DNA from: Duganella dendranthematis
GTDB lineage: Bacteria; Pseudomonadota; Gammaproteobacteria; Burkholderiales; Burkholderiaceae_D
DNA: 64,000 bases
Reading direction: 5' to 3'
Assembly (NCBI RefSeq): GCF_012849375.1
Contig: NZ_CP051684.1
Span: 2,356,001-2,420,000, forward strand
Shown here: piece after piece, positions 40,598 to 45,919 of the stretch
How positions within the stretch are numbered: position 1 is the stretch's first letter
How the letters are laid out: every line of letters begins with the position of its first letter
Position numbers and translations under genes: made by a program
The notes under the pieces: model-generated
What the model saw: only the letters and a program-made list of their open reading frames with translations
What the model was told of the DNA's origin: nothing
Database searches by the model: none

Positions 40598-40612
40598 TAG
40601 ACGACTAGTCTA
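40598..40612. promoter_or_regulatory. NemR-type operator, copy 1 (regulator promoter)
   Basis: TAGACGACTAGTCTA has arms TAGAC/GTCTA around 5 bases and lies 21 bp before the TetR-type ATG at 40634. The same sequence (one change) recurs at 41293-41307 in front of the next operon. It resembles the NemR box TAGACC-N4-GGTCTA as remembered. Confidence 0.75.
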
Positions 40613-40633
40613 ATTGTGTTTATAGTGAAGTCC

Positions 40634-41242
40634 ATGAACACGACAACCACTTCCGAAACCAACGATGTACGAGCGACCATTCTCGCCACGGGCCAACGCC
40701 TGATGGCTGGGAAAGGCTTCTCGGCGGTCGGGTTGAATGAAATCCTGACCGGCGCCGGTGTGCCCAAGGGATCGTTCTACCATTACTTTGGTTCGAAGGA
40801 CGCGTTCGGCGAAGCGCTACTCGACACCTATTTCGATGACTATCTGGCAGAGCTGGATGTGACGCTGGCGCAGCCCGGCATGAACATGGCCCAGCGCCTG
40901 ATCAGCTACTTTGAAGTCTGGCGTCAGACGCAGTCGTTTTTCGATTGCCAAGGCAAATGCCTGGCCGTGAAAATGGCGGCCGAAGTGGCGGACTTGTCGG
41001 AAGCGATGCGCCTGTCGATCAAGCGCGGCACCAGCGGCATTGTGCGCCGGCTGGCAGCCGCGATCGAAGCAGGGGTGGCTGAAGGCTCGCTGAGCATCGC
41101 CGCCGATGCCGACAGCACCGCACACAGCCTGTATCAGTTGTGGCTGGGCACCAGCGTCATGGTCAAGATTGAACGCGACGTTGCGCCATTCACGACCGCA
41201 ATGAACACCACGCACCAAATCCTTCATCTGCCCCAGCACTAA
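40634..41242 (+). CDS. NemR-like TetR family electrophile-responsive repressor
   Basis: A 202-residue TetR regulator. The HTH is 'LMAGKGFSAVGLNEILTGAGVPKGSFYHYFGSKDAF', and 'FFDCQGKCLAVKMAAEVADLSEAMR' is the stretch that in NemR holds the reactive cysteine (C105 and C109 here). NemR senses electrophiles and reactive chlorine and represses nemA/gloA-type genes. The start at 40634 (MNTTTT) was chosen over 40616, because 40598-40612 is an operator and the longer start would crowd it. Identical operators lie before this gene and the DJ-1/OYE operon. Confidence 0.87.
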   Translation: MNTTTTSETNDVRATILATGQRLMAGKGFSAVGLNEILTGAGVPKGSFYHYFGSKDAFGEALLDTYFDDYLAELDVTLAQPGMNMAQRLISYFEVWRQTQSFFDCQGKCLAVKMAAEVADLSEAMRLSIKRGTSGIVRRLAAAIEAGVAEGSLSIAADADSTAHSLYQLWLGTSVMVKIERDVAPFTTAMNTTHQILHLPQH

Positions 41243-41292
41243 GGGAACGATGACACGCATTTCACACGAAATGCTTTTTTTTGCCCCAGTTA

Positions 41293-43242: not shown

Positions 43243-44669
43243 ACAAAAACATTTTTGACGGTCCTTACTACCAAAGCATCGCCGGCAAGCTGGCGACGTC
43301 CGCAGCATCGTTTGACGTGTTCAACCCGGCCACCGGCGCAGTGCTGGCACAGGCGCCGGCCGCCAGCGCGGAACAGCTGGAGGAGGCGATCGCCGCCGCC
43401 AAGACCGCCTTCAAGAGCTGGTCGCAACTGAGCTACGAAGAGCGCCAGTCCTATCTGAATGCCTATGCGGATGCGCTGCAAGTACATCGCGACGAGCTGG
43501 CGCGGCTGTTGACGCTGGAGCAAGGCAAACCGCTGAAGACCATGTCCGAACCCGAGGTCGACCAGTCGATTTCGTGGATACGCCAGATTGCCGCGCGCCG
43601 CCTGCCGGTGGAAATCGTCGAGGAAACCGATGCCCACGTGGTCGAGCTGCATCACACGCCGCTGGGTGTAATCGGCGCCATCACGCCGTGGAATTTCCCG
43701 GTGCTGCTGGCTTTGTGGAAAGTCGCGCCGGCGCTGATTACCGGTAACACCATGGTGATCAAACCGTCGCCGTTCACGCCGCTGTCGACGCTGCGCTTCG
43801 GCCAGATCGCGCAATCCGTGCTGCCGCCGGGCGTGTTGTCCGTGGTTGCGGGCGGGAACGAACTCGGCCCGCAGCTGACGGCGCATGCGGACATCGCCAA
43901 GATCAGCTTTACCGGCTCGACCGAAACCGGCAAGCACGTGATCCGTTCCGCCGCCGGCACCATGAAGCGCCTGACGCTGGAACTGGGCGGCAACGACGCT
44001 GCCATTGTGTTGCCGGACGCCGACTGGCAGGCCGCCATTCCGCAATTGTTCTGGGGCGCCATCGGCAACTCGGGCCAGTGGTGCGTGGGCATCAAGCGCC
44101 TGTACATCCACCGCTCGTTCCACCAGGAATTCGTCGCAGCGTTTGTCGACTACGCCAAATTGCAAAAAATGGGCGATGGCCTCGACCCTGCCGTGACGGT
44201 CGGCCCGGTGCAAAACAAGATGCAGTTCGATAAAGTCCGCACCTTCCTCGACGACATCAAAGCCAACGGCCAGAAGGTGGTGCTGGGCGGCGAAATCGAT
44301 GACAGCCGTCCCGGCTACTTCATTCCCGTCACCGTGGTCGACAATCCGCCTGAGGACGCCAAGATCGTGCAGGAAGAACAGTTCGCACCGATCGTGCCGA
44401 TCATCGTCTACGACGACGTCGAGGATGTCATCGCGCGCGCCAACAACAGTCCGTACGGCCTGGGCGGTTCGGTATGGGGACGCGATACCAAGGCCGCCGT
44501 GGCCGTGGCAAACCGTCTGGAGACCGGCATGGTGTGGGTCAACGAAATCCATACGCAAGGTGTGGACATCCCGTTCGGCGGCCACAAGCAGTCGGGCCTG
44601 GGCACCGAACACGGCAACGAGGGCCGCCAGCTGTTCACCAATCCTAAAACCCTCCTGATCCACAAATAA
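43239..44669 (+). CDS. NAD(P)-dependent aldehyde dehydrogenase
   Basis: A 476-residue ALDH. The general base Glu is in 'LTLELGGNDAAIV', the catalytic Cys in 'NSGQWCVGIKRLY', and 'ITPWNFPVLLALWKVAPALITGNTMVIKPSP' is the cofactor-binding region; the C-terminal 'MVWVNEIHTQGVDIPFGGHKQSGLGTEHG' is typical. It oxidises an aldehyde to an acid, likely downstream of electrophile/aldehyde detoxification with the OYE and DJ-1 genes. The ATGA overlap couples it to the OYE gene. Confidence 0.94.
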   Translation: MNKNIFDGPYYQSIAGKLATSAASFDVFNPATGAVLAQAPAASAEQLEEAIAAAKTAFKSWSQLSYEERQSYLNAYADALQVHRDELARLLTLEQGKPLKTMSEPEVDQSISWIRQIAARRLPVEIVEETDAHVVELHHTPLGVIGAITPWNFPVLLALWKVAPALITGNTMVIKPSPFTPLSTLRFGQIAQSVLPPGVLSVVAGGNELGPQLTAHADIAKISFTGSTETGKHVIRSAAGTMKRLTLELGGNDAAIVLPDADWQAAIPQLFWGAIGNSGQWCVGIKRLYIHRSFHQEFVAAFVDYAKLQKMGDGLDPAVTVGPVQNKMQFDKVRTFLDDIKANGQKVVLGGEIDDSRPGYFIPVTVVDNPPEDAKIVQEEQFAPIVPIIVYDDVEDVIARANNSPYGLGGSVWGRDTKAAVAVANRLETGMVWVNEIHTQGVDIPFGGHKQSGLGTEHGNEGRQLFTNPKTLLIHK

Positions 44670-44671
44670 TC

Positions 44672-45919
44672 ATGACGACAAGCGCCTTTCCCATGACGAT
44701 CCAGACTGGCGAGCGCCGTGTGCTCTCCATGTTTGCCGCCCTCGTCTGTATCGTTTTGGTGGCGCTGGGATTGCGGCCCGGCATCGTGTCCATCGGCCCG
44801 CTACTGCCGAGAATCATCGCGCAATTCGGCTTGTCGCATACGCAGGCTTCCCTGCTGACGGCGATTCCGACCTTGCTGATGGGTTTGCTGGCTTTGCCGG
44901 CGCCGTGGCTGGCGCGCCGCGTTGGCCGGGATCGCATGATCCTGATCGCACTGGCGCTATTGGCTGCGGCCAGCCTGCTGCGGGCATTTGCCGGCTCGGC
45001 GACGCTGTTGTTCGTGGCCACTGCCGGCATCGGCGCCGGCATTGCGGTGGCCGGCACGCTGATTGCCGGCTTTATCAAGGAGAGCTATCCGGCGCGCGTG
45101 GCGATGGTGATGAGCATCTACGCCACCGCGCTGGCGCTCGGCAGCAGTATGTCGGCACTCGTCACCGGCGCGATCGCCGCGCGTTTCGATGGCTGGCGCG
45201 TTGGCGCCGGCGTCTGGATGGTATCGGGATTGGTGGCGCTGGCCGCCTGGCTGCTGGTCGCCAGCGGCACGCCCAAAGCGCGGCAGACCGCGACCGCCAA
45301 GCGTTACGCCATGCCCATCGGCAATCGCACCGCCTGGCTGATCGCCCTTTTTTTCGCCTGTAATAACTTCATTTTTTACGCTTACATCTCGTGGCTGGCG
45401 CCGATGTATGTGGAATATGGCCGTAATGCCGCCAGCGCCAGCCTGATACTGGCAATCTTTACGCTGGCGTTCATGGTGGCCAATCCCGTGTTCGGCTTCC
45501 TCAGCCGCAACGAGGACCGGCGCGTGCCGCTGGCCATCAGCGCCGGCATCGCGCTGGCCGGCAATCTGCTGATGCTGGTCTCGCCCACCGCTTGCCCGTG
45601 GCTGACGGTGGTGCTGATTGCCTTCGGCACCGGCGGCTCGTTCACGCTGGCGATGACTTTGCCGCTGGATAATGCCGCCAATGCCGACGAAGCCAACGCC
45701 TGGAATGCCTTTGTGCTGCTGGTCAGCTACGTCATCGCCGCAGCTGGCCCCTTGCTGGTAGGCCAGCTGCGTGACGCCAGCGGCAGCTTCCAACCGTCGC
45801 TGTGGCTGATCGCCGCGGTCGGCGCCGCCATGCTGGCCATCACGCCGTTCTTGCAGCCTTACCGGCCCAGTTCCATCACCTTGACCCAGGCGGCGACGAA
45901 ATCGGCGACGAACTTCTGA
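44672..45919 (+). CDS. MFS transporter (CynX/NimT type)
   Basis: A 415-residue major-facilitator protein with twelve hydrophobic segments. 'LRPGIVSIGPLLPRIIAQFGLSHTQASLLTAIPTLLMG' is characteristic of the CynX/NimT branch, with 'ARRVGRDRMI' as the loop 2-3 motif. It starts 2 bp after the aldehyde dehydrogenase, so it belongs to the operon, possibly exporting the acid product. Its 3' end overlaps convergent katG by 61 bp (45859-45919). Confidence 0.9.
   Translation: MTTSAFPMTIQTGERRVLSMFAALVCIVLVALGLRPGIVSIGPLLPRIIAQFGLSHTQASLLTAIPTLLMGLLALPAPWLARRVGRDRMILIALALLAAASLLRAFAGSATLLFVATAGIGAGIAVAGTLIAGFIKESYPARVAMVMSIYATALALGSSMSALVTGAIAARFDGWRVGAGVWMVSGLVALAAWLLVASGTPKARQTATAKRYAMPIGNRTAWLIALFFACNNFIFYAYISWLAPMYVEYGRNAASASLILAIFTLAFMVANPVFGFLSRNEDRRVPLAISAGIALAGNLLMLVSPTACPWLTVVLIAFGTGGSFTLAMTLPLDNAANADEANAWNAFVLLVSYVIAAAGPLLVGQLRDASGSFQPSLWLIAAVGAAMLAITPFLQPYRPSSITLTQAATKSATNF

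Follow-up and report, generated by a model that had tools for sequence, protein, structure and literature searches.

The TetR-type repressors NemR and CurR are known to switch single enzymes or small sets of them. In Escherichia coli, nemR stands in nemR-nemA-gloA, and NemR has a HOCl-responsive cysteine, Cys106, in a pocket with Trp167 (PMC8748444). CurR of the CurR-curA pair in Pseudomonas aeruginosa (PA2196-PA2197) is reported to sense NaOCl and N-ethylmaleimide (NEM) (Duang-Nkern 2024, Gene 927:148754). AltR of Pantoea ananatis, a NemR homologue of the alt cluster (thiosulfinate tolerance), resembles the system described here in having several boxes per cluster and one essential cysteine, Cys100, but differs in its box (CAATCTAC-N6-GTAGATTG), its other genes, and its response to thiosulfinates (PMC13178969). 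DitR of Stenotrophomonas maltophilia is a TetR repressor with a thiol switch that acts on an MFS operon (mfsBC), but its box is CATAC-N5-GTATG and it has 15.9% identity with NemR (PMC9342713). CssR and an Acidovorax TetR-pqi cluster were considered as counterparts and turned out to be other things. Here, we analyze a stretch of 64,000 nucleotides (the window) of the soil bacterium Duganella dendranthematis, a portion of one single 6.53 Mb contig, in which two copies of a 15-bp box precede a TetR-type repressor gene and an operon of DJ-1, old yellow enzyme (OYE), aldehyde dehydrogenase (ALDH), and MFS transporter genes.

The locus is of a known kind, that of NemR-nemA-gloA and CurR-curA; new here is a swappable detoxification payload that accompanies a nearly invariant box in many lineages, with DJ-1 as its commonest member. 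With a probability of roughly 0.78, we read the locus as a two-promoter, one-repressor electrophile/oxidant switch, predicted from the following features:

40598-40612, + strand: box 1, TAGACGACTAGTCTA, putative operator before the regulator gene; possible -10 TCTAAT at 40609-40614 (the last box bases plus AT), hexamer by eye
40634-41242, + strand: TetR-type repressor, NemR/CurR-like, 202 aa, with C105, C109, and K178, assigned by family, tree, and residue comparison
41257-41274, + strand: terminator-like hairpin followed by TTTTTTTT (eight T), 3' of the regulator gene, called from its position and T-tract
41293-41307, + strand: box 2, TAGACGACTGGTCTA, putative DJ-1 operon operator; TCTAAT at 41304-41309 as possible -10 and TTGCCC at 41281-41286 as possible -35, hexamers by eye
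41352-42032, + strand: DJ-1/PfpI protein, Hsp31/Glx3-like, with E26, C134, and H135 (DJ-1_PfpI domain, PDB matches)
42036-42071, + strand: strong hairpin without a T-tract in the gap between the DJ-1 and OYE genes (folding, z-score)
42091-43242, + strand: old yellow enzyme, a NemA/SYE1-like ene-reductase (Oxidored_FMN, NCBIfam, PDB)
43239-44669, + strand: aldehyde dehydrogenase with C282 as its sole cysteine; its ATG overlaps the OYE stop (ATGA) (Aldedh)
44672-45919, + strand: MFS transporter, nearest to the CynX/NimT subfamily; its 3' end overlaps a convergent gene (MFS_1)

An earlier reading of this DNA from its letters (the sequence-only reading) reported two near-identical 15-mers, one before the TetR gene and one before the next operon. 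Both lie where they were reported, and they are the only exact occurrences of TAGAC-N5-GTCTA in the genome. A gap of 21 bases separates box 1 from the regulator ATG (40634); for box 2 and the DJ-1 ATG (41352) the gap is 44 bases, not the 45 first given. The description of one operator common to both transcription units holds for the sequence of the box but not for a single shared site: each of the two promoters has its own operator copy, and the hairpin at 41257-41274 lies between box 1 and box 2. By count the hairpin is weak as a terminator, since the region has 4 terminator-like sites versus 5.6 expected in shuffles. A scan of the window allowing up to three mismatches returned five matches (both boxes on two strands plus one other), compared with a mean of 0.53 and a maximum of 3 in shuffled sequence. 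Eight sites in the genome deviate from the box by one mismatch; one of them, TGGACGACCTGTCTA, in addition reads GAC at box positions 6-8 and is inside a 680-aa open frame. A chance origin of the two boxes is ruled out by the shuffles, their uniqueness in the genome, and the co-occurrence of box and regulator in the genus.

Across 74 genomes of the genus, the regulator is present in 55 (E up to 1e-40) and a box of the form TAGACGACYRGTCTA in 56, with a reversed control in 0 of 74. All 55 carriers of the regulator have the box, 53 of them at least twice, and 18 of the 19 noncarriers are without it (table 55/0/1/18; Fisher p 2.6e-16, uncorrected for kinship); 122 boxes were counted in total. The sequence-only reading had staked its proposal in part on conservation of the boxes in relatives, and besides every carrier in the genus, 80 of 80 named loci from other bacteria (described below) have the box with at most one mismatch. 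In the only noncarrier with a box (genome G060; locus L209, 3585-7057), the single copy stands ahead of a hydrolase-OYE-SDR series whose final gene encodes a divergent TetR protein, 33% identical to the window regulator, and this divergent regulator may use the same box.

The co-occurrence also bears on a rival reading in which box 2 belongs to a different TetR protein, such as that encoded at 39121-39723, with the match to box 1 reflecting a shared ancestral site only. A second TetR gene does stand 1.5 kb upstream, and divergent TetR proteins share the box in G060 (33%) and in G228 (27%). Nevertheless, regulator and box occur together in 55 of 55 carriers, whereas the upstream TetR gene and the PhzF-family gene beside it have one weak match each in the 80 named loci (L025, L055) and, among the genus loci, which are short, stay next to the unit in L095 and L096 alone. 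We consider service to another TetR protein very improbable, and control of both boxes by the adjacent regulator is the reading carried forward.

Beyond this genome, 110 loci were compared, 80 named and 30 from the genus; three places are represented twice (L006/L126, L074/L150, and L066/L152), and related species among the loci are not independent. The named loci are the best 80 of at least 560 relatives by similarity to the window regulator, so that payload shares among them are not population shares. An exact box lies within 260 bp before the regulator in 101 of the 110 loci. The exact N5 box is present in 77 of the 80 named loci, the remaining three (L021, L065, and L076) having two one-mismatch sites each, and every locus in the payload layout has a box, exact or with one mismatch. 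In an even sample of 369 genomes from across the class, a regulator was detected in six (E. coli NemR as query, E up to 1e-25), all with the N5 box before it and five with the TAGACGACYRGTCTA form.

The position of the box fits repression at the promoter, in that its right end would form a -10 element, an overlap seen as a statistical trend. T is the second base 3' of the box in 96% of 175 distinct box contexts. Hexamers resembling a -35 (four or more of six bases) are located at spacers of 17 and 18 from TCTANT in 19% and 14%, respectively, compared with 0-7% at other spacers between 8 and 33. Box 1 allows an alternative placement, TAGACG-17-TATAGT, in which the box covers the -35; with either placement, repression would be by occlusion. 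The box is also oriented. At located genes it points toward the gene in 154 cases (100 regulator, 54 DJ-1). Four sites are reversed, of which two form a divergent pair in L027, leaving L019 and L056 as truly reversed. The count at located genes replaced a first strand count (143 same, 50 opposite) that was confounded by divergent genes and antisense open frames. Because GTCTA ends the box in both directions, we propose that polarity is determined by the G at box position 10, found in 88% of contexts, which would fall at -14 of an extended -10.

In the proposed mechanism, the repressor, assumed to be a dimer, would occupy box 1 and box 2, each overlapping a promoter -10, and keep RNA polymerase off the regulator gene as well as the DJ-1/OYE/ALDH/MFS operon. 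C109 would be the target of a soft electrophile or hypochlorite-type oxidant, perhaps via a C105-C109 pair, and the modified repressor would release the DNA, allowing expression of the operon. We infer binding, derepression, the inducer, and the substrates of the enzymes, the binding and the chemistry by analogy with NemR, CurR, and AltR.

C105 and C109 are the only cysteines of the regulator. The sequence-only reading had assigned both to the NemR cysteine stretch. C109 belongs there as the equivalent of Cys106, but C105 aligns with Thr102 and has no cysteine counterpart in E. coli NemR; K178 aligns with NemR Lys175. C109, K178, and W170 are each present in 121 of 121 relatives (at least 40% identity), and a second cysteine no more than 12 residues before C109 is present in 104, at -4 in 71. 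These counts contain the doubly represented places and omit L030, L038, L076, L093, and L173, in which the reading frame met a stop. For NemR, a Cys106-Lys175 sulfenamide was proposed, but none was found in the Hypocrates sensor (PMC8748444).

Residue conservation also bears on a different mode of release, in which a specific ligand such as a plant enone, quinone, or phenolic frees the repressor by binding in the TetR pocket rather than through cysteine chemistry. TetR regulators ordinarily respond to bound ligands, curcumin-reductase and OYE types are part of the payload, and the cysteines of CssR are described as having no redox role (PMC8176726). However, the Cys106 and Lys175 equivalents are each invariant in the 121 relatives, and the relatives NemR and AltR are reported to signal via that kind of cysteine. 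Release by a pocket ligand is therefore doubtful, and we retain the cysteine-based electrophile/oxidant switch.

The nearest NCBIfam model of the regulator is CurR, and its closest solved chains are 3rd3 (195.8 bits) and 4l62 (194.3), which we take to be PA2196 (CurR) of P. aeruginosa; E. coli NemR (4yze) scores 134 bits. A 99-row tree sets the six enterobacterial NemR rows apart as a clade (support 99/89) and unites the window regulator with 3rd3 and box-bearing relatives in a group of 89 rows (92/99; drawn open, not starred), in which the nearest named row to the window regulator is from Duganella guangzhouensis. With its place in that group and TAGACGACYRGTCTA before its gene, the regulator falls under the definition of the CurR/NemR-like group with a 15-bp box, and judged by the tree it sits on the CurR side and is not a NemR orthologue. 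The window therefore shares with CurR-curA the same TetR group, 3rd3 being nested with the window regulator, as well as a box that CurA genes follow within this group; the payloads differ, CurA there and DJ-1/OYE/ALDH/MFS here. With E. coli nemR-nemA-gloA it shares a related repressor with the key C/K/W residues, an OYE payload (NemA), and a near-identical operator sequence. However, E. coli NemR has 36-39% identity with the window regulator and belongs to the separate, starred clade.

Several observations weigh against an electrophile/oxidant switch of this regulator acting through this box. The CurR model (NCBIfam NF058643) scores 232.6 bits, under its cut-off of 300. Another study, as described in PMC3739934, holds NemR Cys21 and Cys116 to be critical, and the window regulator is without equivalents of either (M24, A119). 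AltR, although a NemR homologue, is reported to ignore NEM and diamide (PMC13178969), implying that inducer specificity can differ among homologues. Reports on P. aeruginosa conflict. The NemR homologue there, PA14_36300, is, going by its gene number, probably CurR itself. In one study it was unaltered by HOCl or HOSCN, with mention of an earlier study that had found induction (PMC7950407). Given these conflicting reports and the narrow sensing of AltR, the inducer is not nameable from sequence. As for the box, the class-wide sample has an exact copy in 15 of 369 genomes and a reversed control in 8 of 369, so outside regulator carriers the exact 15-mer is not far above background. These occurrences are not all chance, as in G228, of the same class (L214, 3264-3944), two exact boxes flank the TetR gene whose product is 27% identical to the window regulator. 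Yet regulators with only 27-33% identity (G228, G060) accompanying the same box mean that the box does not specify one regulator.

Domain matches agree with the identities that the sequence-only reading had given to the genes: TetR_N and TetR_C_13 in the regulator, DJ-1_PfpI, Oxidored_FMN in the ene-reductase, Aldedh, and MFS_1. The DJ-1 protein is nearest to PDB chains 4p5p and 1u9c, then to yeast Hsp31 and a glyoxalase III. Its E26, C134, and H135, present in 71 of 71 distinct rows, make up the Hsp31/Glx3-type active-site set, presumably the Glu/Cys/His triad of such proteins. The OYE scores 405.8 bits with the N-ethylmaleimide reductase model (NCBIfam PRK10605), barely above the cut-off of 403, and its nearest solved structure is SYE1. 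The ALDH falls below cut-off for the best 25 of 43 NCBIfam models, and the MFS protein scores 239.3 bits with the CynX/NimT model, its best family, under the cut-off of 406. The exporter role that the sequence-only reading gave it is therefore only putative, as is that reading's complete electrophile route. A NemA-type OYE is thus linked to the window regulator, and no glyoxalase is found among the eight window proteins that were domain-scanned. In the proposed scheme, the DJ-1 protein would be glyoxalase/deglycase-like, the OYE would reduce activated C=C bonds and quinones, the ALDH would oxidize aldehydes, and the MFS protein would move a substrate or product. Together, the operon would reduce, oxidize, or repair damage from reactive carbonyls and enones.

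The OYE, ALDH, and MFS genes are tightly packed, with gaps of -4 (OYE/ALDH) and +2 (ALDH/MFS) bases, which suggests one transcript. The DJ-1 and OYE genes are 58 bases apart with the strong hairpin between them (-33.8 kcal/mol for 42030-42093, z -4.5), which might raise DJ-1 relative to the downstream genes. Stable hairpins of unrelated sequence are present in the same gap in L011, L014, L019, L023, L064, and L079 (folded without shuffled controls); in L128 and L129 the two genes overlap and leave no gap.

Payload genes near the box vary among loci. Counts are tblastn matches within 6.5 kb on the strand of the regulator, not proven members of one transcript, with families assigned from seven representatives. 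Among the 80 named loci, DJ-1 is matched in 59, and in two more on the other strand (L027; partial in L039). Others are OYE in 24, CurA in 13, ALDH in 10, YqhD-like in 9, SDR in 8, ABM in 7, quinone-oxidoreductase-like and molybdenum-hydroxylase small subunit in 5 each, aldo/keto reductase in 3, and MFS and hydrolase in 2 each. The full DJ-1, OYE, ALDH, and MFS set recurs among the 110 loci only in L124, from the same genus and with a regulator of 98% identity, and, rearranged and with three boxes, in L017 of Rheinheimera. L125, also a close relative, retains DJ-1 and OYE and has no ALDH or MFS match nearby. L140, L141, and L143 share the arrangement DJ-1, hydrolase, regulator, ALDH, MFS (L143 has an SDR in addition) and have two or three boxes; these three and L017 keep boxes at the unit heads. 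The operon of the window is one draw from a common set of genes. The set does differ from nemA/gloA, as the sequence-only reading had supposed: the E. coli nemR-nemA-gloA stretch has no DJ-1, ALDH, or MFS gene, and loci of the window clade have mainly DJ-1, with OYE, CurA, ALDH, YqhD-like, SDR, or MFS genes nearby.

This composition is also the evidence on a catabolic role, in which a plant-derived unsaturated aldehyde or ketone would be imported by the MFS protein and oxidized as a carbon source. OYE, ALDH, and MFS do make a plausible reduction-oxidation route, and CynX/NimT, the nearest subfamily of the MFS protein, includes importers as well as exporters. But the commonest partner is DJ-1 (59 of 80) while MFS is rare (2 of 80), and the alternative partners CurA, YqhD-like, ABM, and SDR are a defence-like mix. 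A catabolic operon is quite unlikely, and electrophile defence remains our reading of the payload.

Some boxes are far from the regulator. A scan blind to genes located 14 boxes more than 5 kb from the regulator, in eight genomes of the genus, of which 13 precede a complete DJ-1 or CurA gene (loci L204-L208, L211, and L212 are among these). In G057, G058, and G067, a DJ-1 gene with 91-92% identity to that of the window comes immediately after a tandem box pair, and in G031, G040, G059, and G070, distal boxes stand before CurA genes. The remaining box, in G048 (L210, 10939-11010), precedes a short stretch like the end of curA (KNFGKAVVR, by eye), where curA seems to have been lost. The placement of distal boxes before DJ-1 and CurA genes points to a regulon acting in trans. 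Lateral transfer is suggested by the tree, where distant families adjoin, with Rheinheimera beside Stenotrophomonas and Halomonadaceae (96/91) and Mesorhizobium beside Acidisoma (only 86/76). Homologues of the regulator, found by regulator similarity alone, are present on 102 plasmid records (E up to 1e-40).

These patterns raise a broader proposal, which we put at even odds: a laterally moving, mix-and-match electrophile-defence regulon of Pseudomonadota and Actinomycetota. It would be built on an oriented 15-bp box fused to the -10, CurR/NemR-type repressors mostly with a second sensor-loop cysteine, and a DJ-1/Hsp31-type protein as the commonest payload; an extended -10 that requires G at -14 would account for the polarity of the box, and regulator and box would be separable and act in trans. 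The in vivo task of the DJ-1/Hsp31-type group is disputed, and the box links this group to a probable inducible electrophile response. If true, electrophile defence would be the setting of this DJ-1 group, and each DJ-1 would have a natural inducible context. The box could also be used to predict electrophile-defence genes, including those far from the regulator.

The enterobacterial loci allow the box itself to be compared. The E. coli nemR promoter has an operator-like TAGACCGACTGGTCTA, one base longer than the window box. In 27 of 30 enterobacterial nemR loci (the best 30 of 46 matches, from 119 genomes searched), the nemR box is exactly the 16-bp TAGAC-N6-GTCTA, whereas the window boxes are 15 bp. 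A strict spacing code, with 15 bp in the window group and 16 bp in the E. coli type, was rejected, because 14 of the 30 loci (L174-L203) also have an exact 15-bp TAGACGACCGGTCTA just behind nemR, about 625 bases after its start, and the 16-bp form occurs only at the nemR promoter. The 15-bp copy is approximately where nemA begins in E. coli and possibly marks a separate nemA promoter. E. coli K-12 has CAGACGACCGGGAGC at that spot, decayed as if its right half had been lost. Twin boxes may thus be an ancient feature of the NemR/CurR group as a whole. Within the open-access literature, subscription papers being outside the scope, a multi-enzyme payload, DJ-1 as commonest partner, a promoter-fused oriented box, and distal use were not met together. 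Searches of that literature with the box strings gave only matches unrelated by title, and a printed NemR/CurR box resembling this one may exist.

Neighbouring genes complete the locus. The TetR gene at 39121-39723 and the PhzF-family gene lie directly upstream on the same strand, spanning 39121-40577, and the PhzF stop is 20 bases 5' of box 1. Downstream, a catalase-peroxidase-like gene (katG by eye; 45859-48117, - strand) is convergent with the MFS gene, their 3' ends overlapping by 61 bases. A second OYE gene (49277-50386, - strand) lies 3.4 kb past the operon, with no further exact box in the window; it scores 349.2 bits with the N-ethylmaleimide reductase model, under the cut-off.

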